Part shown: piece by piece, positions 41,701 to 54,482 of the stretch
How the letters are laid out: each line of letters starts with the position of its first letter
How positions within the stretch are numbered: the stretch's first letter is position 1
Program-made: the position numbers and the translations under genes
Notes under the pieces: model-generated
Told to the model about the DNA's origin: nothing
What the model saw: the letters and a program-made list of their open reading frames with translations, nothing else
Databases searched by the model: none
Assembly: GCF_000797465.1 (NCBI RefSeq)
Contig: NZ_JSWG01000009.1
Location: 558,001 to 622,000 of the forward strand
Reading direction: 5' to 3'
Length of the DNA: 64,000 nt
Source: Psychroserpens jangbogonensis
GTDB taxonomy: Bacteria; Bacteroidota; Bacteroidia; Flavobacteriales; Flavobacteriaceae

Positions 41701-41708
41701 TAACTTTG
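41701..41708 (+). promoter_or_regulatory. -7 element before the GAF-domain gene
   Basis: TAACTTTG fits TAnnTTTG. A start near 41714 would lie downstream of the ATG at 41710, which favours the ATG at 41728 as the true start. No ideal TTG at -33 was seen. Confidence 0.5.
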
Positions 41709-41727
41709 TATGTTCCAAAATGTTATT

Positions 41728-44103
41728 ATGAAAGATATCAATGACAATCTAGAGTCACCTTTTAAGCTCTTAGTAAGTTTTAATAAACTATTGAAGCATT
41801 ATGAGGCTTTGGCTGAAAATGACGACGAGTTTATTGCTGCTAAAGCAAGACGAGTTTTAAAGACTGCAGATGCTTTTCCAGTATTACGAGAAGGCTTTAG
41901 TGACATTTCTGTTCTGAAAGAACGCGAAAAAGAAATTGGAATTATTCTTCAAGATTCTTTTAGTCCTGTATTGTCTAAAAATGAAATTAAAACAGCATCT
42001 GTTCCTTTTCACAATCTTATTTTTAATTCTTCAGATCGTTTCAAAAGTATTATTCAAGAAGCTGGAGATGATTTTGAACTGAAAATTAAGAATATGCCAG
42101 AAGATGATAAGTACATTATTGCTTGTACTATTGTTCTAGCATTTTGTTATGGATTCGATATGAATTTCAAACGTCCTTTTTATTATGAAATTCCAGATGC
42201 AAAAGGAATTATGCAATTCTATAAAATCTTGTATAATGCCGATTTCACTGAAATTGTACCTACTGAAAATGCACCAAAAATCACTCAAAGTGATTTCGAT
42301 GAACTTCTAGATAATTTTGAAAATATCGAATTATGGAAAGAGAAGTTCCCTAAAGATAGCTATACGTTTAAGGGGTTTGTGATTTCTAATATTTTTAATG
42401 TTACTGACGATCAGTCTATTTCAAATATTAAAACGGCTTTAATAGGTGAAGAGAAAAGACAGGATAAAGGGTTTATGGATGATTTTCATGAAATCTTTCG
42501 TTCTCTTTTAGGCTTAAAAAATATTAAAGTAGGGTTTTCAATTTACAATGAAGGAGAGGATAGATTCGAACGTGTTTATGGAGCTGAAATGAATAGCTTT
42601 TTGCTACATGATTTAGAATCTAACTCATGTTCAGGAACCTTATGTAGTATGTCATATAAAACCTTGCTCAAAGACAAGAGTTTCTATAGCATATCAGATG
42701 TCGACAAATATTATGAATTGTCTAAAGGTAAGGCACCTCAATATAAAACACTAAAAGAACAAAATATAAAAAGTGCGATTTTAGCGCCTATTGCTAATGA
42801 AAAAGGATTAATGGGAATTCTTGAAATTGTTTCAGAAGAACCAAAAGTCCTTAATAGCATTAATGCGAATAAGCTAAATGATGTGATGCCGTTTATTGTA
42901 TCTGCTGTTGAGCGTTCTAAGAAAGAGGAAGAAAACTTAATTGAAGCCATTATTCAAACCGAATGTACTTCTATACACCCAAGTGTGCATTGGAAGTTTG
43001 AAAAAGAAGCGAAAAACTTTATTAAAGACCAGCTTAATGGTAAAGAACCAAGTTTTAATAAAATTGCCTTCGAAAATATTTATCCTTTATATGGTCAAAT
43101 AGATATTAAAGGGTCTTCAGAAGCTAGAAATTCTGCAACCAGAGAAGATTTAACGATTCAGTTAAATTCTATAAAATCTATTGTGGAAAGTGCATTTCAA
43201 ATAGAAAATTTGCCAATTTATGAGCAGTTCCTATATCAGATAAACAATTATTTAGAAGGATTAGAAGCCCATTTTCAGGTGGATAGTGAACAACAAATAT
43301 CAGCATTTATAAAACATGATATTGACCCTGTTTTACAACATCTACAATCTATAGATTCTTTAAAAGGTCAATTAGATTCTTATTTTAATAGTATCGATGA
43401 TAAAGTTGAGGTGCTATACCACCATAGAAGAAACTACGATGATACTATTGCGTTAATTAATAAAGAAATGGCTGCGCTTTTAGATAAAAAGCAAGTAGAA
43501 GCTCAAGCAATGTATCCTCATTATTTTGAACGCTTTAAAACTGATGGAGTTGAACATAACATGTACATTGGTGAGTCCATAACCAAAGATGATAGTTTCA
43601 ATCCTATTTATTTATATAACTTAAGATTGTGGCAATTACAAGTAATGGTTGAAATGGAAAACACATTTTATTTAATGCAATCTGACTTTCCAGTAAAACT
43701 AGATGTTGCCTCAATGATTTTGGTGTTTAATCAACCACTATCAATAAGTTTTAGAATGGACGAAAAACAATTTGATGTTGATGGGACTTATAATGCCAGG
43801 TACGAAATTGTTAAAAAGCGAGTTGATAAAGCTTACATAAAAGGGACTACTGAAAGAGTTACTCAAAAAGGTAAAATAAGCATCGTATATTCTCAAAAAC
43901 AAGATGAAATTGAATATATGAGATATATCAAATTCTTGCAATCTAAGAAATATTTAGATGATGATATGGAAATCGTTGAGTTACAAGATTTACAGGCTGT
44001 TACTGGATTGAAAGCGATAAGAGTAAGCGTGTTGTATCATAAAGAAAACAACGATAAAGAGTTTTACACGTACGATGATTTAATGAAAGAGATTAATATA
44101 TAG
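41728..44103 (+). CDS. Large GAF-domain protein of unknown output
   Basis: From the ATG at 41728 the protein has 791 residues, with no signal peptide or membrane segment. One GAF domain is recognisable at about 250-410 (FHEIFRSLLGLKNIKVGFSI, ILAPIANEKGLMGILEIVS). The N-terminal 245 residues and the C-terminal 380 residues are mostly helical with no family I recognise, and no kinase, cyclase, GGDEF or DNA-binding output is visible. The promoter-like TAACTTTG overlapping the region before 41710 supports the shorter start. The gene converges on the HD-PycTM gene. A cytoplasmic sensor or scaffold is likely; the ligand is unknown. Confidence 0.7.
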   Translation: MKDINDNLESPFKLLVSFNKLLKHYEALAENDDEFIAAKARRVLKTADAFPVLREGFSDISVLKEREKEIGIILQDSFSPVLSKNEIKTASVPFHNLIFNSSDRFKSIIQEAGDDFELKIKNMPEDDKYIIACTIVLAFCYGFDMNFKRPFYYEIPDAKGIMQFYKILYNADFTEIVPTENAPKITQSDFDELLDNFENIELWKEKFPKDSYTFKGFVISNIFNVTDDQSISNIKTALIGEEKRQDKGFMDDFHEIFRSLLGLKNIKVGFSIYNEGEDRFERVYGAEMNSFLLHDLESNSCSGTLCSMSYKTLLKDKSFYSISDVDKYYELSKGKAPQYKTLKEQNIKSAILAPIANEKGLMGILEIVSEEPKVLNSINANKLNDVMPFIVSAVERSKKEEENLIEAIIQTECTSIHPSVHWKFEKEAKNFIKDQLNGKEPSFNKIAFENIYPLYGQIDIKGSSEARNSATREDLTIQLNSIKSIVESAFQIENLPIYEQFLYQINNYLEGLEAHFQVDSEQQISAFIKHDIDPVLQHLQSIDSLKGQLDSYFNSIDDKVEVLYHHRRNYDDTIALINKEMAALLDKKQVEAQAMYPHYFERFKTDGVEHNMYIGESITKDDSFNPIYLYNLRLWQLQVMVEMENTFYLMQSDFPVKLDVASMILVFNQPLSISFRMDEKQFDVDGTYNARYEIVKKRVDKAYIKGTTERVTQKGKISIVYSQKQDEIEYMRYIKFLQSKKYLDDDMEIVELQDLQAVTGLKAIRVSVLYHKENNDKEFYTYDDLMKEINI

Positions 44104-44111
44104 AACTTATA

Positions 44112-45317
44112 TTAAAACAAAACATTTGTTCCAGCAATTTGAAATGCTACAGCAAAGCAAATAACACTTACAATAATACCTACCATAAATACAGTATAGG
44201 TCGTACGAAGTAAGCCATATTTTCTGTTTAAAACTAATCCAAGAAAGTATAAATCTTTAGTAAGTGAGCTGTAAAGATAATCTCTGTCTTGCATCATTTT
44301 TGTCATTGCCCATTCAAATTCATCGAGTTTCATTTGGTGAAAATTTCCGAAGAATAAAAGATTTACTTTTTTATTGGCAACATCTTTTTTAGTGAATTTA
44401 CCCTGAGTTACATTTGGTCGTGTAGCTAAAACGGATAATACAATTGAAGCAACTGTAAACAGTGCAAAAACAGCAGTTGGCCATACTAAATAGTAATTTG
44501 AAGGATTATCTAGTTTTGAGACTAAATTTGAAAGTACTAAAGAGATAATAATAGCATTGACAGATAATAAAATGTTAGCTTTTGTATCTGCAATATCACT
44601 CAGGGTAATATGGTTACGAAGTGCAACTCTAAACATGGTTTCAATACCTCGTTCAGGTAGATCTAATTTGTGTTTCTTAAATTTTAACTCATCCTTTTTT
44701 TGCTTTAACTTCTCTGTACTTTCTTTAATTTTATTTTGATCTAATAAAAGATTCGCTAAGTTTTTGCCTTTACGGTTTTCCCATTTTCCAGAAGCTAATG
44801 CCGAATAAAAAGTGTGGTTAGTTAAAAACGCAATATTTTCATTTAACCACTCAGATTTAGAAAGTTTTTTTTCTAATGTCAATTCCCATTCTTTTCGCAA
44901 CAGTGAAGAATAATTTTCATAATTTTTACTAGAAACATGAGCGCAATCGGCATCTTTAATAAGTCCTTCTAAATTGTTTTTGGGTACATGTTTCATTTGA
45001 GTAGCCAAAATGATTTCTGAAACACTTTTTATAACCTCATCAGGAACGTTTTCCGATTTTAAAAAAGCTGTTGCAATTTTCACACTTTCTTTTTCATGAC
45101 CATCAATGGTTTTTGTAAATCCAGTATCATGAAACCATGCTGCTAGTAATAATTGCTCCTTCTCGTTATCACTTAATTCTACCTCTTCAAGCAGTTCAGT
45201 TGCTTTGGCAACTACTCTTTGAGTATGAGCAATATTATGGTATACAAAAGTCGTGTCAAGATTTTCATTTAGATAATTTGTGACAAATTGCTCAGCTTTA
45301 GAAATAAGAGGACTCAT
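44112..45317 (-). CDS. HD-domain protein fused to a Pycsar-effector-like (PycTM) membrane domain
   Basis: The 401-residue protein has two parts. Residues about 10-200 form an HD phosphohydrolase domain with intact metal ligands: H27/H31 (YHNIAHTQRV), H63-D64 (WFHDTGF) and D122/D124 (IKDADCAHV). Residues about 220-400 match the membrane domain of Pycsar effectors: MFRVALRNHITLSDIADTKAN, helices at about 248-268, 278-298 and 374-396, and ATRPNVTQGKF between. In Pycsar anti-phage systems a cyclic-pyrimidine signal opens a PycTM effector that damages the membrane. No pyrimidine cyclase gene is visible in this window. The HD-PycTM form is common in Flavobacteriia, so a housekeeping nucleotide-responsive role is equally possible. 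Confidence 0.8.
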   Translation of the reverse strand: MSPLISKAEQFVTNYLNENLDTTFVYHNIAHTQRVVAKATELLEEVELSDNEKEQLLLAAWFHDTGFTKTIDGHEKESVKIATAFLKSENVPDEVIKSVSEIILATQMKHVPKNNLEGLIKDADCAHVSSKNYENYSSLLRKEWELTLEKKLSKSEWLNENIAFLTNHTFYSALASGKWENRKGKNLANLLLDQNKIKESTEKLKQKKDELKFKKHKLDLPERGIETMFRVALRNHITLSDIADTKANILLSVNAIIISLVLSNLVSKLDNPSNYYLVWPTAVFALFTVASIVLSVLATRPNVTQGKFTKKDVANKKVNLLFFGNFHQMKLDEFEWAMTKMMQDRDYLYSSLTKDLYFLGLVLNRKYGLLRTTYTVFMVGIIVSVICFAVAFQIAGTNVLF

Positions 45318-45505
45318 AATAATGATTTTCAGTAAAAATACTAAACTTTAGTTAATGTAAAACATGCACTTTTATTTGTCGTAAATTTATAGAATGCTTT
45401 CATGGATATTGAACGGAATACAATTGTAAGTAATTAAACTCTATTTCGACTATTATTAAGTTGAAAGCATACTAATATTAACTAAAAAAAGAAAGGACCC
45501 ATTTT

Positions 45506-46767: not shown

Positions 46768-48330
46768 ATGAAACTAAATTTAAAACAAACATTCACTGAA
46801 GAATTACCAGCAGATTCTGTTTTAGAGAATTCGAGAAGACAAGTAAAAGAAGCTTGTTTTTCGTTCGTAAACCCTAAGCAAACAAAGAATCCGGAAACAC
46901 TGCATGTTTCAAAAGAAATGGCTACAGCTTTAGGTATTTCAGAAAGTGATTTATCTAGTGAATTATTTACTAAAGTATTCACTGGAAACGAACTTTTACC
47001 TAAGACTAGACCATATGCTATGTGTTATGGCGGACACCAATTTGGAAATTGGGCAGGACAATTAGGAGATGGAAGAGCTATTAATCTGTTCGATGTTGAG
47101 AATAATAATAAGCAATGGACAGTACAACTTAAAGGCGCAGGAGAAACGCCTTATTCAAGAAGTGCCGATGGTTTGGCTGTTCTTCGTTCGTCTATTCGAG
47201 AGTATTTGTGTAGTGAAGCCATGTTTCATTTAAATGTGCCAACAACTAGAGCATTGTCTTTAGCGATTTCAGGTGATGAGGTTTTAAGAGATATGCTTTA
47301 CGATGGAAATTCTGCCAACGAAAAAGGAGCGATAGTTTCTCGTGTTTCACCATCGTTTTTGCGTTTTGGTAGTTACGAGATTTTTGCCGCTAGACAAGAT
47401 CATAAGACATTAAAAACCTTAGTTGATTTTACCATAAAACATCATTTTTCACATTTAGGAGCACCTTCAAAAGAAAACTATATTAAGTTTTTTGCTGAAG
47501 TTTCAGAACGCACATTAGAAATGATTATTCATTGGCAACGTGTTGGTTTTGTACATGGCGTAATGAATACAGATAATATGTCTATCCTAGGTTTGACCAT
47601 AGATTATGGACCTTACGGTTGGCTAGAAGGTTTCGATTTTGGATGGACGCCAAATACAACTGATATCCAACACAAGAGATACAGATATGGTAATCAACCA
47701 AATATCGGACTTTGGAACTTATACCAACTTGCTAATGCTTTATATCCATTAATTGAAGAAACGGAACCTTTAGAAACTATTTTGGATCGTTATAAAACTG
47801 ATTTTGAATTGAAATCTTTGGAGATGATGAAATCAAAATTAGGTTTAGAAACTATTGATGATAAAGATCATTTGCTAATTGAGGCTTTAGAAAATGCTTT
47901 AATTCTAACCGAAACAGATATGACAATCTTCTTCAGGAATTTAAGTAATCATAAAAAGGGTGGCGCAAAACAAGGTGTAAATACTGTTAAAGATGCGTTT
48001 TACACACCGAATGAGGTTTCTGATAAGATTGCTCAACAATGGCAAGACTGGTTTGAACGCTATGATTTTAGACTAGAAAAAGAATCATTATCAGATAAAG
48101 ACCGACAATCAAAAATGAAAACTGTAAACCCTAAATATGTCCTTCGGAATTATATGGCGCAATTAGCGATTGATGATGCTAATAAAGGAGATTATAAACT
48201 AATCGATGAGTTATATCAATTACTTAAGCAGCCTTATGAAGAACAACTAAATATGGAAAAATGGTTTGCTAAACGTCCTGATTGGGCAAGACATAAAGTG
48301 GGTTGTTCAATGTTGTCATGCAGTTCATAA
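46768..48330 (+). CDS. selO: Protein adenylyltransferase SelO (YdiU family)
   Basis: SelO is a pseudokinase-fold enzyme that transfers AMP to Ser, Thr or Tyr of proteins and helps protect cells from oxidative stress. The 520-residue protein has the family segments RPYAMCYGGHQFGNWAGQLG, VQLKGAGETPYSRSADG, VLRSSIREYL, VHGVMNTDNMSILGLTIDYG and the Trp-rich GWLEGFDFGW. The C-terminus ends SCSS: Cys518, third from the end, sits exactly where animal SelO has selenocysteine. It is two nt downstream of the glutaredoxin-like gene, matching the known link between SelO and glutaredoxin or glutathionylation. Confidence 0.95.
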   Translation: MKLNLKQTFTEELPADSVLENSRRQVKEACFSFVNPKQTKNPETLHVSKEMATALGISESDLSSELFTKVFTGNELLPKTRPYAMCYGGHQFGNWAGQLGDGRAINLFDVENNNKQWTVQLKGAGETPYSRSADGLAVLRSSIREYLCSEAMFHLNVPTTRALSLAISGDEVLRDMLYDGNSANEKGAIVSRVSPSFLRFGSYEIFAARQDHKTLKTLVDFTIKHHFSHLGAPSKENYIKFFAEVSERTLEMIIHWQRVGFVHGVMNTDNMSILGLTIDYGPYGWLEGFDFGWTPNTTDIQHKRYRYGNQPNIGLWNLYQLANALYPLIEETEPLETILDRYKTDFELKSLEMMKSKLGLETIDDKDHLLIEALENALILTETDMTIFFRNLSNHKKGGAKQGVNTVKDAFYTPNEVSDKIAQQWQDWFERYDFRLEKESLSDKDRQSKMKTVNPKYVLRNYMAQLAIDDANKGDYKLIDELYQLLKQPYEEQLNMEKWFAKRPDWARHKVGCSMLSCSS

Positions 48331-49971: not shown

Positions 49972-52900
49972 ATGAAAAATCCGTTAAAGGTAGTAGCATT
50001 ATTTGCTATTATTTTACTTCTTAATGCGTGCGCAACATATAAAGCGCAATATCAGAAAAACATTACAGATTCAATTTTTCCAGATAAAACAGTTTCACAT
50101 TCCTTTTATTTATTAGGAGATGGAGGTAACTCAGAAATGGGTTCATCATCCGAGGCAATTCAAGCGTTTGAAGAAGCCTTAAGACAAGCTCCTGAAAATA
50201 GTACTGCAATTTTTTTAGGTGATAATATATACCCAAGCGGATTAACTTCAAACAATTCAGAGCAAGAATTAGCTGAACATAGACTTCAAGTTCAAATAGA
50301 TGCTGCTAAAAATTTTAAAGGAGAAACAATTTTTATTCCAGGTAATCACGATTGGTATGGAGGTATAAATGATCTAAAACGACAAGAAAAGTTTGTTGAA
50401 GATGCTCTAGGAAAGAATACATTTTTACCAGAAAATGGATGTCCAATCGAACGTGTAAATATTTCTGAAGATATCGTGTTAATCATTGTTGATTCTCAAT
50501 GGTATATTACAGATTGGGATAAGCATCCAAAAATAAATGATGGATGTGAATTTAAAACAAGAGCACGTTTTATCGATGAATTTGAGAGCGAAGTAAAAAA
50601 GGCAAGAGGAAAAACCACAATCATTGCAATACATCATCCTATGTTTACCAATGGTCCTCACGGAGGACAATATAGTTTGGGTTCACATATGACACCAATT
50701 CCAGTATTGGGAACTTTAAAAAACGTAATTCGTAAAACAAGTGGAGCGTCACATGCAGATTTAAACAATAAGAGATACCGAGAGTTAAAGGAAATGTTAG
50801 TTACACTAGCACAAGAAAATGATAAAGCGCTTTTTGTTTCTGGACATGAACATAGTTTGCAATATATTATTGAAAATAATTTACCGCAAATTGTTAGTGG
50901 TTCAGGATCAAAAACAAGTGCAACTAGAAATGTTGGAGGAGGAAAGTTTTCTTATGGACATCAAGGTTATGCAAGGTTGGATGTTTTTAATGATGGGTCA
51001 TCATATGTTCGCTTTTATGCTGCAGGTACTTCTGAACCTGTTTTTGAAACCGAAGTAATAAAGGCTAATGAAAGTGTCGAAACTGATTTTAGTGAAACAA
51101 TGCCTAAAACAGTAAAGGCGTCAATTTATTCTAAGGAAGAAACAGATAAAGGTAAATCTTATCAAAAAGCTTGGGGACAACGCTATAGAAAATATTTCAG
51201 TACTGAAGTTGAGTTGCCTACAGTAAATCTAGATACGCTTTATGGAGGTTTAACTCCTGTTAGAAAAGGCGGAGGTCATCAGTCTAAATCTTTGCGTTTT
51301 AAAGATCCACAAGGAAGAGAATACGTAATGCGTGCATTAAGAAAGAATGGTGTGCAGTACTTACAAGCGGTACTTTTTAAAGATCAATATATCACTCCTG
51401 AACTTGAAGGAACAAAAACAGAAGCGTTATTGCTTGATGCATTTACTGCTTCACATCCTTATGCGCCTTTTACAATTGCTGAATTATCTAAAGCAGTAGA
51501 TGTATATTATTCAGAGCCAAAATTGTTTTACGTTCCTAAACAAAAAGCTATAGGAAAATTTAATGATGAGTTTGGTGACGAAATTTATATGATTGAAGAA
51601 CGTGCAGCCGATGGTCATGGTGATAAAGCTGGTTTTGGTTTTTCTGATAAATTGATTAGCACATACGATATGCTAGAAGAACTTAGAGAAAAAGAAGATC
51701 ATGTAGTAGATGAAGCAGCATATATAAGAGCCAGATTATTTGATATGGTTATTGGAGATTGGGATAGACATCAAGATCAATGGAGATGGGCTGTTTTTAA
51801 AGAAGATGGAAAAACAATATACAGACCAGTTCCTAGAGATAGAGATCAAGCTTTCTCTCTTATGGATGATGGATATTTAATGAAAACAGCTACGTTTTTA
51901 ATACCACCAATTAGATTATTGCGCTCTTATGAAGGCGAATTAAAAGATCCAAAATGGTTTAATGTAGAACCTTTTCCATTAGATGTAGCTTTACTAACAA
52001 AATCAACTAAAGCAGATTGGGACAAGCAGGTTGCACTTATTCAAAGTAATTTAACTGAAGAAGTAATCGATAGAGCCTTTTTAAAATTCCCTATAGAAGT
52101 AAGGGATGAAACCATTCAAACAATTAAAGAAAAATTAATTCAGAGACGTGAAAGCCTGAAAGGTACATCAGATGAATATTTCAATATTGTAAACAAATAT
52201 GCAACTGTAAGAGGTACAGATAAGGATGATTGGTTCGAAATTGAAAGGATGACAAATGGTATTGTTTCCATAAAAATTTACCGAATTAAGCAAGGTAAAA
52301 AAACAGATTTATTCCATGAACGCTTATATTATCCAGAAGAGAATAAAGAAATTTGGGTTTTTGGTTTAGATGATGACGATTATTTTGAAGTGTCAGGAGA
52401 TGGTGCTGCTGAAATAAGGTTGCGTATCGTTGGAGGTCAAAATAAGGATAAATATAATATTGTAAATGGAAAGAAAGTCCATATTTACGATTATAAATCC
52501 AAAGAAAGTGAATTCATTACAAACAAGGGAAATCGTCATCTTAAAGATGATTATTATTCTAACCTTTACGACTTCAAAAAAATAAAATATAACTCTAAAG
52601 TAATTTTACCGGTATTTGGGTTTAATCCAGATGATGGTTTTAAATTAGGAGTGGGAGGCATGTTTGTTAAAAACGGATATGATAATGAAAAGTTCTCATC
52701 TCAACATTTTGTAAGTGGCCATGTGTTTTTTGCTACTGGTGGTGTGGATTTTAATTATAATGGTGAGTTTGCAGAGATTTTTAATGATATAAATCTTGGT
52801 GTGAAAGCAAGATTTGCTAGTCCTAGTTTCGCAATTAATTTTTTCGGATTTGGTAACTCTACACCAAATTTAAGCGTTGATAATCCAAATGGCGATGAAG

Positions 52901-53667
52901 AAGATTTTGATTACAATAGAGTAAGACAGTCAACTTATGCCGTTGGGACATCATTTATTAAAAGAGGAGAATATGGTAGTAAATGGTCTTTTGGATTAAA
53001 TTTTGAATCCATAGAAATTGAAAATACTGATGACCGATTTATTAGTGGTTTATATCCTATGGATTTTCAGCCTGATAGAGACAATTTTATAAATACCGAA
53101 TTATCATACGCATTTACAAACGTAGATGAAAAGGCATTCCCTACCTTAGGGATTGACTTCAAAGTTGCTATAGGATATACTAACAATCTTAAAAACTCAA
53201 ATAACTATAGTTATGTAATCCCATCTCTAGGAATTGATTACAAACTAAACGCCAGCGGCAATTTTGTATTGGCTACTAAAATAAAAGGCCAGATTAATTT
53301 TGGAGATGAATTTGAGTTTTATCAAGCAGCAACTTTAGGTGCCAATAATGGTTTGAGAGGTTACAGAAATGAAAGATTCTCTGGTAAACGTTCATTCTTT
53401 CACAGTACAGATTTAAGGTATAATCTTAAACGAGTTAGTACTTCAATTGTGCCAATTGAATATGGTCTTTTTGGCGGCTTTGATTATGGTCGTGTTTGGG
53501 TTGATGATGATTTTGTAAGCGATCCTGATTTTAATGAAGATGCGTTAAATACTTCAGTAGGAGGTGGGTTATTTGTGAATATGGTAGACTTGCTATCCTT
53601 TAATGCTGGAGTATTTACCTCAGATGACAGTATGAGATTTAGCTTTGGTTTTGGTTTTCAATTTTAA
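49972..53667 (+). CDS. Metallophosphoesterase / kinase-like / outer-membrane beta-barrel lipoprotein
   Basis: The 1231-residue protein begins with a lipoprotein signal (LLLNAC, Cys20). Residues about 40-365 are a calcineurin-like metallophosphoesterase: D50 (LLGDGG), GDNIYP (83-88), GNHDW (124-128), H221/H222 and GHEH (291-294). Residues about 430-740 contain motifs like atypical (Fam20/HipA-type) kinases: REYVMRALRK (449-458), a loop GDWDRHQDQW (595-604) and PRDRDQAF (621-628). From about 865 to the end is a 16-strand Omp85/BamA-like barrel (VFGFNPDDGFKLGVGG, GLRGYRNERFSGK, terminal FGFGFQF). The phosphatase would be periplasmic or surface-exposed next to the barrel. The kinase-like reading is my inference from motifs; the other two domains are firm. 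Confidence 0.85.
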   Translation: MKNPLKVVALFAIILLLNACATYKAQYQKNITDSIFPDKTVSHSFYLLGDGGNSEMGSSSEAIQAFEEALRQAPENSTAIFLGDNIYPSGLTSNNSEQELAEHRLQVQIDAAKNFKGETIFIPGNHDWYGGINDLKRQEKFVEDALGKNTFLPENGCPIERVNISEDIVLIIVDSQWYITDWDKHPKINDGCEFKTRARFIDEFESEVKKARGKTTIIAIHHPMFTNGPHGGQYSLGSHMTPIPVLGTLKNVIRKTSGASHADLNNKRYRELKEMLVTLAQENDKALFVSGHEHSLQYIIENNLPQIVSGSGSKTSATRNVGGGKFSYGHQGYARLDVFNDGSSYVRFYAAGTSEPVFETEVIKANESVETDFSETMPKTVKASIYSKEETDKGKSYQKAWGQRYRKYFSTEVELPTVNLDTLYGGLTPVRKGGGHQSKSLRFKDPQGREYVMRALRKNGVQYLQAVLFKDQYITPELEGTKTEALLLDAFTASHPYAPFTIAELSKAVDVYYSEPKLFYVPKQKAIGKFNDEFGDEIYMIEERAADGHGDKAGFGFSDKLISTYDMLEELREKEDHVVDEAAYIRARLFDMVIGDWDRHQDQWRWAVFKEDGKTIYRPVPRDRDQAFSLMDDGYLMKTATFLIPPIRLLRSYEGELKDPKWFNVEPFPLDVALLTKSTKADWDKQVALIQSNLTEEVIDRAFLKFPIEVRDETIQTIKEKLIQRRESLKGTSDEYFNIVNKYATVRGTDKDDWFEIERMTNGIVSIKIYRIKQGKKTDLFHERLYYPEENKEIWVFGLDDDDYFEVSGDGAAEIRLRIVGGQNKDKYNIVNGKKVHIYDYKSKESEFITNKGNRHLKDDYYSNLYDFKKIKYNSKVILPVFGFNPDDGFKLGVGGMFVKNGYDNEKFSSQHFVSGHVFFATGGVDFNYNGEFAEIFNDINLGVKARFASPSFAINFFGFGNSTPNLSVDNPNGDEEDFDYNRVRQSTYAVGTSFIKRGEYGSKWSFGLNFESIEIENTDDRFISGLYPMDFQPDRDNFINTELSYAFTNVDEKAFPTLGIDFKVAIGYTNNLKNSNNYSYVIPSLGIDYKLNASGNFVLATKIKGQINFGDEFEFYQAATLGANNGLRGYRNERFSGKRSFFHSTDLRYNLKRVSTSIVPIEYGLFGGFDYGRVWVDDDFVSDPDFNEDALNTSVGGGLFVNMVDLLSFNAGVFTSDDSMRFSFGFGFQF

Positions 53668-53675
53668 AAGTCTGA

Positions 53676-54482
53676 CTATTCTAAGATAAAACGGTATATA
53701 TTTCCGCCATTAAATTTTCCAAACTCATCTGTGATGAGAACTTGATTGTCATTAATTAGATTAACACCTTCTTTTTGGGAGTTGTGTTTAAACTCTAATG
53801 CATCAATTTCTCCATTAAAGAAGTCATCACCAGTGTAATCTGTTAATTTCCAAAGCTTGCTATGATTTAGTAAAACAACAGTTTTACCATCATCACTAAT
53901 ATCTGCCGAAGTAACCTTAGAATGTTTGCCCTTTAGTTTGGTTTTTGAAATGTAACTAGCTACATGATTGCCCATTTTATTTGGGACTTTGATAAGTTCA
54001 CATTTTTTGTGGTCTTTACTAAAAACATAAAAAAACCCATTGTGTAAAAAGAACGATTCAAAATCTATTGAATTCATTCCATCTGGAAGTGTAAAATTAA
54101 TGATGCTTGCATTTACTGATGACTTTGCGTTTTCAGCATTAGGAACTATATAAATAGTAAAACTTGTCCTGTTTTCAGCGTTGTTTCCGAAATCACCTAT
54201 ATAAATATTTCCTTTAGAATCAGAGGTCAAATCCTCCCAGTCAATATTTTCTGCATTATTAATTGTAATGTCCTTAAGGATATCTCCGTTTAGGTTTAAT
54301 CCATATAAGTGATTCGTATTTCCAGAATCTTGAATAACCCATAATATATTTGAATCATTTATTTTTTCTATTGCAGACGTCTCCTTTAAGCTAGACGGTA
54401 TGTCAGCTAAAATTTCGACATTTCCTGTGCCGCAAGAAATAAAAAATAGAGCAACCGTAATAGTTTTGATAAATGCTTTCAT
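53676..54482 (-). CDS. Beta-propeller-like lipoprotein of unknown function
   Basis: The 268-residue protein has a lipoprotein signal (ITVALFFISC, Cys17). The mature part shows repeated strand-turn units with Asp/Gly/Asn turns: SNILWVIQDSGNTNHLYGLN, DWEDLTSDSKGNIYIGDFGNN, FFYVFSKDHKKCELIKV, ADISDDGKTVVLLNHSKLW and EGVNLINDNQVLITDEFG. These match an SMP-30/SdiA-regulated-type six-bladed propeller, shorter than usual. Such proteins bind metal and may hydrolyse lactones or phosphate esters, but no catalytic site is certain here. It converges with the phosphoesterase-barrel gene (8-nt gap) and is transcribed separately. Confidence 0.65.
   Translation of the reverse strand: MKAFIKTITVALFFISCGTGNVEILADIPSSLKETSAIEKINDSNILWVIQDSGNTNHLYGLNLNGDILKDITINNAENIDWEDLTSDSKGNIYIGDFGNNAENRTSFTIYIVPNAENAKSSVNASIINFTLPDGMNSIDFESFFLHNGFFYVFSKDHKKCELIKVPNKMGNHVASYISKTKLKGKHSKVTSADISDDGKTVVLLNHSKLWKLTDYTGDDFFNGEIDALEFKHNSQKEGVNLINDNQVLITDEFGKFNGGNIYRFILE

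Follow-up and report, generated by a model that had tools for sequence, protein, structure and literature searches.

Proteins that join an enzyme to an outer-membrane barrel of the Omp85 type have been described before. In the 'Metallo' subfamily a PF00149 domain, called a metalloprotease there, is combined with an Omp85 barrel, and Omp85 kinds without POTRA domains are described in the same account (Heinz and Lithgow, 2014, PMC4104836). PlpD, a patatin-Omp85 protein, carries an N-terminal lipase-type enzyme that stays in the periplasm, and the Omp85 proteins treated in the available part of that account have at least one POTRA domain (PMC11116518). Here we analyze a gene of Psychroserpens jangbogonensis whose product, a predicted lipoprotein, has a domain with a kinase-like fold situated between a metallophosphoesterase and an Omp85-type barrel. 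The gene lies in a stretch of 64,000 nucleotides (contig NZ_JSWG01000009.1, positions 558,001 to 622,000), called the window below, whose numbering is used throughout. The 'Metallo' subfamily very probably comprises the same proteins or close kin, as compared by description and not by sequence lists. The available text on that subfamily does not mention the middle domain (PMC4104836), and no description of this domain was found in the open-access literature searched, which mostly leaves out subscription papers.

The open reading frame and all motifs named in an earlier reading of the bare DNA (the original prediction) are present as described: GNHDW at residues 124-128, GHEH at 291-294, REYVMRALRK at 449-458, GDWDRHQDQW at 595-604, and PRDRDQAF at 621-628. 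The parts of the gene are listed here with the evidence for each.

49972..53667, + strand: whole gene, phosphoesterase, kinase-fold domain, beta domain and Omp85 barrel in one lipoprotein of 1231 residues (open reading frame; homologs)
49972..50031, + strand: lipoprotein signal peptide, residues 1-20, lipobox LNAC with Cys20 (sequence read by eye; Cys20 conservation)
50089..51081, + strand: purple-acid-phosphatase-type metallophosphoesterase, about residues 40-370 (Pfam, conservation, fold match)
51154..52206, + strand: kinase-fold domain, about residues 395-745 (AlphaFold2 model, Foldseek, profile comparisons)
51244..51282, + strand: glycine-rich loop GGLTPVRKGGGHQ, residues 425-437 (conserved; adjoins strands in the model)
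51331..51345, + strand: R454 to K458, candidate nucleotide-binding basic residues at a strand end (conservation)
51754..51786, + strand: putative catalytic loop GDWDRHQDQWR, residues 595-605, with D598 and Q603 (conservation, CotH alignment, spacing)
51832..51855, + strand: putative metal motif PRDRDQAF, residues 621-628, with D623 and D625 (conservation, CotH alignment, spacing)
52207..52593, + strand: all-beta domain, about residues 746-874, where POTRA domains would be (models; no Pfam match)
52594..53664, + strand: 16-strand Omp85-type barrel, about residues 875-1231, LRGYR at 1128-1132 (full-length model, NCBIfam, Foldseek)

A scan for homologs in genome contigs gave 555 stretches that encode a relative, and the best 80 of these 555 were retained; among the relatives is a homolog in Flavobacterium pectinovorum (L074). 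The close set is an alignment of 81 sequences, the query being one of them, whose titles place them in Flavobacteriales or other Bacteroidota; the divergent set consists of 62 domains and leaves out L148 and L149, whose rows were short.

Fold and motifs of the middle domain

An AlphaFold2 model of residues 375-880, covering the middle domain and the beta domain that follows, was built with 81 sequences and is confident (predicted local distance difference test, pLDDT, 90.9; predicted template-modeling score, pTM, 0.91). In this model the middle domain has a two-lobed kinase fold. A Foldseek search of the PDB with the middle-domain model gave 526 matches at E-values up to 10, twelve of them at E-values up to 0.001. 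The top match was the HipA-like kinase CtkA (PDB 3akl; E 7.8e-5, probability 1.00, template-modeling (TM) score by target 0.56, root-mean-square deviation 7.7), with PI4KIIalpha (E 2.4e-4) and a chain of the Fam20C-Fam20A complex (E 6.9e-3) lower in the list. The best 50 of the 526 matches are kinases by title, including PI4KII, ADCK3/COQ8A, and Rio2, apart from 11 (MSMEG_1954, Rv3197, YihE, and pre-40S chains) that we take to be kinase-like. Because the TM score by target is 0.56 and the deviation 7.7, the relation to CtkA is one of fold and not of closeness. The kinase-like reading of the middle domain in the original prediction, which had proposed structure prediction and a fold search as its tests, is supported by the model and by sequence comparison. 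Of the two outcomes that the original prediction had named as refuting it, a confident model lacking a two-lobed kinase-like fold and unconserved Lys and Asp positions, neither was observed.

Conservation of the motifs points the same way. K458, D598, R599, H600, Q603, D623, and D625 are identical in 81/81 close sequences. Among the 62 divergent domains, K458 is kept in 61, D598 in 58, D623 and D625 in 60 each, and these four are jointly intact in 57; R454 is conserved in 60. Conservation to this extent (81/81 and 57/62) indicates that the motifs do not occur by chance. Residue 603, five positions after D598, is Gln in 59 and Asn in three of the divergent domains, and in 58 of the 62 D623 stands at a distance of +25 to +27 from D598. 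The corresponding distance is +22/23 in HipA (17 of 25 sequences fitted the pattern) and +26 in CotH (7 of 25 fitted), compared with 25 in the window protein. In the alignments and the model the catalytic Asp, the Asn/Gln at +5, and a second Asp after a beta hairpin, by which membership of this fold group is recognized, are all present.

The original prediction likened these motifs to those of Fam20/HipA-like kinases. Their order and spacing are indeed of kinase type, although the closest motif match found is CotH (GNWDNY..N / IPYDYDNTF) and not Fam20C. The domain shares with CotH a loop of the form G-x-W-D-x-[YH]-x-x-[NQ] and a metal motif of the form IP-x-D-x-D-x-x-F, and the hhalign alignment with CotH pairs both, GDWDRH with GxWD and PRDRDQAF with IPyDyDntF. 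The Pfam model for CotH (PF08757), however, matches the domain neither in the window protein nor in 24 or 50 relatives. HipA and CtkA, which provide the best fold match, share a D-x-H-x-x-N motif with the domain, but HipA is a cytoplasmic toxin-antitoxin kinase, whereas the family described here appears to be exported. The Pfam model for HipA (PF07804) is unmatched, and HipA_C gave a best E-value of 0.19, in 2/50 members. Fam20C is an exported kinase with a DRH motif. Across 296 Bacteroidota genomes its Pfam model (PF06702) has two matches with E-values up to 0.001, each of which falls within the kinase-fold domain. Fam20C differs in that it belongs to the animal secretory pathway and lacks a barrel, and no Fam20C match was found in the window protein. 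The two matched relatives, L177 and L178, are the only such in the 296 genomes.

As the original prediction had supposed, the middle part is unnamed: neither Pfam nor NCBIfam has a model that names the kinase-fold domain. Within residues 400-760 the Pfam matches of the window protein are at chance level, and so are those of sets of 24 and of 50 relatives (the best being DUF1598, at E 0.0014). Among sequence profiles, one built from 50 divergent domains placed CtkA first in the PDB, at the chance-level E-value of 0.061. In hhalign comparisons the kinase-fold profile scored 36.1 with CotH, 29.7 with HipA, and 17.5 with SelO, compared with at most 23.5 for 11 neighbor families used as controls, 22.8 for the phosphatase part, and 15.7 for the barrel part. 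One neighbor cluster is excluded from the controls as the kinase-fold family itself; the beta-domain part scored 56 and is not a control, its first 15 columns overlapping the query. These scores are each weak alone, yet they agree in direction. We regard the domain as a new family of a fold group already known, and its combination with the other domains as new too.

In both models the strand preceding K458 stops at residue 455, and R454 lies inside it. K458 as the ATP-lysine, as originally predicted, is thus possible in the models, and either R454 or K458 is a candidate nucleotide-binding base. One relative (L128:6549-9128), in which K458, D598, and D625 are all changed, is on its sequence a probable natural pseudokinase.

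Phosphatase, barrel, and architectures

The flanking domains bear out the metallophosphoesterase and BamA-like barrel of the original prediction. Pfam Metallophos matches residues 63-295 (32.5 bits; cut-off 21.5), and D50, D84, Y87, N125, H126, H222, H292, and H294 are presumably the residues of a dinuclear metal site; match and site together identify the purple-acid-phosphatase type. In close relatives D50 is kept in 77/79, D84, N125, and H126 in 78/79, and H292 in 81/81, and in a wider set the site is intact in 47/50, the exceptions being L142, L177, and L178. Among the best 50 of 786 Foldseek matches of the full-length model, the best for the phosphatase part is GAP50, which we take to have a phosphatase-type fold.

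That full-length model (residues 32-1231; pLDDT 87.2, pTM 0.83) has a C-terminal barrel of 16 strands, counted by hand, and TamA and BamA are, with GAP50, the best fold matches among the same 50. Pfam ShlB matches residues 1046-1177 with 22.8 bits, barely over its cut-off of 22.7, and NCBIfam Omp85_fam matches 1088-1231 (E 3e-14, 53 bits), under its cut-off of 200. LRGYR contains RG[FY], presumably the Omp85 motif. No POTRA domain was found in the model between the kinase fold and the barrel, where there are essentially beta strands only and no POTRA-like helices, and no Pfam model matches this all-beta domain (746-874). The even number of strands places both barrel ends in the periplasm, and hence the soluble part as well unless it is exported through the membrane. 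PlpD, whose enzyme is attached to an Omp85 barrel and stays in the periplasm, offers a precedent (PMC11116518). The original prediction also called the barrel a pore, which is an assumption.

Within the 296 Bacteroidota genomes sampled, the only phylum scanned, 112 carry the kinase-fold domain, and its company varies. In a survey of 40 hand-chosen loci with profiles of the four parts (start codons approximate), open frames of phosphatase, kinase fold, beta domain, and barrel have 1204-1395 residues, those of kinase fold, beta domain, and barrel 855-1031, those of kinase fold and beta domain 502-586, and those of the kinase fold alone 426-433; L148 and L149, in which a barrel is combined with an incomplete kinase part, are outliers. 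In two genomes of one genus (L119 and L120) the kinase-beta part, the phosphatase, and the barrel are encoded by three adjacent genes, the latter two confirmed by Pfam in L119. A gene for an MgtE-type magnesium transporter follows this split cluster (L119:2344-7829 and L120:5949-11586; by Pfam in the former and by eye in the latter).

Cys20 is identical in all 79 rows of the close-relative alignment that extend to it, counting the query. Every architecture has members that begin with a lipobox, a signal peptide, or a membrane anchor, as judged by eye and not by a predictor. In L112-L116 the kinase-fold domain stands alone behind what seems to be a single membrane anchor at the N-terminus, and the genomes concerned have the fusion as well. 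From such signals read by eye we infer export and a periplasmic position of the soluble part.

Gene neighborhood and PPK1

Genes near the kinase-fold gene were counted in 80 hand-chosen divergent loci and 80 close loci. Two neighbors recur, and in the window they are the following.

53676..54482, - strand: SdiA-regulated-like gene, convergent neighbor (Pfam match below cut-off)
44115..45347, - strand: HD domain and PycTM membrane protein, open frame, start codon approximate (Pfam, relatives)

The SdiA-regulated match of the window copy scores 18.6 against a cut-off of 21, and the copies in L130 and L139 are above the cut-off. PycTM we take to be the Pycsar effector transmembrane domain. Neighbors in the divergent loci are HD genes (34, some frames having the HD part only), SdiA-regulated (26), PPK1 (17), SixA (14), and, more rarely, PAP2 (4), CotH (3), and porin O/P (3); in the close loci they are HD (47), SdiA-regulated (46), and PPK1 (1). 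The SdiA-regulated gene is immediately upstream, on the same strand as the kinase-fold gene, in 22/80 divergent loci, and a run of HD-PycTM, PPK1, SdiA-regulated, and kinase-fold genes occurs in 5/80 (L139, L144, L145, L204, and L211). HD relatives thus recur beside the kinase-fold gene in distant Bacteroidota, where they adjoin PPK1 and SixA, and the HD-PycTM gene may be a polyphosphate partner and not a defense part alone.

Because these loci were hand-chosen, linkage was measured in all 79 genomes outside Flavobacteriales that bear the domain, the 33 of 112 that belong to that order being left out. PPK1 lies within 5 kb of the kinase-fold gene in 16/79 genomes (9/23 families) and within 20 kb in 34/79 (10/23 families). 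The control, a single gene family (adenylosuccinate synthetase, with 80 listed places compared with 113 for PPK1), was within 20 kb in 0/79 and within 50 kb in 1/79. PPK1 itself is common (78/99 genomes of the class). The proximity of PPK1 in many relatives suggests a phosphate-handling enzyme outside the cytoplasm.

Other genes nearby were also noted. SelO, a kinase-like protein adenylyltransferase, is encoded two genes upstream (46768-48330, + strand); its kinase-like nature drew attention to it, but it is near the kinase-fold gene in 21/80 close and only 1/80 divergent loci and its profile score is at control level, and it was taken as synteny. A 799-residue open frame at 41704-44100 (+ strand) has no Pfam match, and related frames occur in 31/80 close loci. 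In L125, L129, and L130, genes for a CotH kinase, a porin O/P-like protein, and PAP2 are grouped next to the kinase-fold gene (named by Pfam in L130); no CotH match was found in the genome of the window. By eye, a CotH gene and that of the polyphosphate polymerase VTC are no more than about 7 kb apart in at least 6/59 genomes, which is only a lead to a second way in which exported kinases may be linked to polyphosphate.

Proposed function and alternatives

The reading we favor, and hold to be fairly likely, is that the protein is an outer-membrane lipoprotein combining an envelope phosphotransferase and a phosphatase in phosphate or polyphosphate handling, with its soluble part in the periplasm. 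The middle domain would have the atypical protein-kinase fold of the CotH, HipA-CtkA, Fam20, and PI4K group and most likely be an active, metal-dependent phosphotransferase, with D598 catalytic, Q603, D623, and D625 as metal ligands, and R454 or K458 on the phosphates of the donor, which may be ATP, another nucleotide, or polyphosphate. It would add phosphate to an envelope substrate (a protein, glycan, or lipid), and the N-terminal domain, a phosphohydrolase of the purple-acid-phosphatase type, would remove that phosphate or free phosphate alongside PPK1 and the SdiA-regulated partner; the barrel would anchor both enzymes at the inner face of the outer membrane. The two domains may share a substrate.

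Several observations weigh against this. We know of no ATP in the periplasm. K458 is situated three residues beyond the modeled strand, and 5/62 divergent domains are degenerate. In L177 and L178, paralogs of the fusion, the phosphatase site is broken while the kinase motifs are intact, so that kinase and phosphatase may well act on different substrates; their Fam20C matches score 20.4 bits, under the cut-off of 26.8. Searches of the PDB with the window protein and with a profile of 24 relatives gave chance matches only, an unrelated chain (E 0.069) directly follows CtkA in the search with 50 domains, and the hhalign probabilities are weak (CotH 16%, HipA 6%). As for the gene linkage, 18 of the 34 linked genomes come from one family (f23), at a distance of 8-16 kb, which makes family counts safer than genome counts; 45/79 genomes have no PPK1 within 50 kb on the same contig, and two of these have no PPK1 match at all. 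The genome of the window has PPK1 on a different contig, next to genes named by eye as SixA-like and Ppx-like, although the HD-PycTM and SdiA-regulated-like genes are close to the kinase-fold gene.

Some of these points could also be explained by a pseudokinase that transfers no phosphate and instead binds a nucleotide, polyphosphate, or a phosphorylated sugar, so as to regulate the phosphatase or to supply it. A periplasm without ATP, the non-standard geometry of R454 and K458 in the model, and the loss of K458, D598, D623, or D625 in the five degenerate members would all fit. Such loss is exceptional, however; the catalytic Asp, dispensable for mere binding, is kept in nearly all divergent members, and L177 and L178 retain the kinase motifs despite their broken phosphatase. 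We regard a pseudokinase as rather unlikely.

If the soluble part crossed the barrel, as in Type Vd-like passengers, it would work at the cell surface, with nucleotides or phosphoesters from outside as its substrates. Such compounds do occur extracellularly, but the even strand count places both barrel ends in the periplasm, and the relatives consisting of the kinase fold alone seem, by eye, to be anchored N-terminally in the membrane. PlpD was once thought to cross its barrel, but its enzyme domain is described as exclusively periplasmic (PMC11116518). A surface location is accordingly improbable.

The domain might also use its fold for other chemistry on an envelope substrate, such as nucleotidyl or AMP transfer or glutamylation. 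Kinase folds have been reused in this way in SelO and SidJ, and SelO is encoded nearby. The motifs and their spacing, however, follow CotH and HipA, which phosphorylate, and the profile score with SelO is no higher than that of the controls, so that we give this explanation little credence. A D228Q variant of CotH is described as catalytically inactive (PMC7821199).

That the fold is unrelated and shares its motifs by chance is strongly disfavored and scarcely credible, since, weak as the sequence-only scores are, the model is confident, the best 50 of the 526 Foldseek matches are kinases or kinase-like, and the key residues are conserved.

A bolder proposal can be made, which we advance tentatively and think doubtful: the domain may define a new family of extracytoplasmic kinases of Bacteroidota that phosphorylate envelope targets with polyphosphate and not ATP as the donor. 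PPK1 would provide the polymer, and the fused domain would act as a phosphatase or polyphosphatase. If true, phosphorylation at the outer membrane would proceed by a system that does not depend on ATP. To our knowledge, kinases are hardly known in the extracytoplasmic compartment. The unnamed kinase-fold family described here is common in one phylum and apparently exported, and the source of phosphate there is an open question, which the gene link to PPK1 makes directly testable. The 'Metallo' class of Omp85 proteins likewise gains a function to test.

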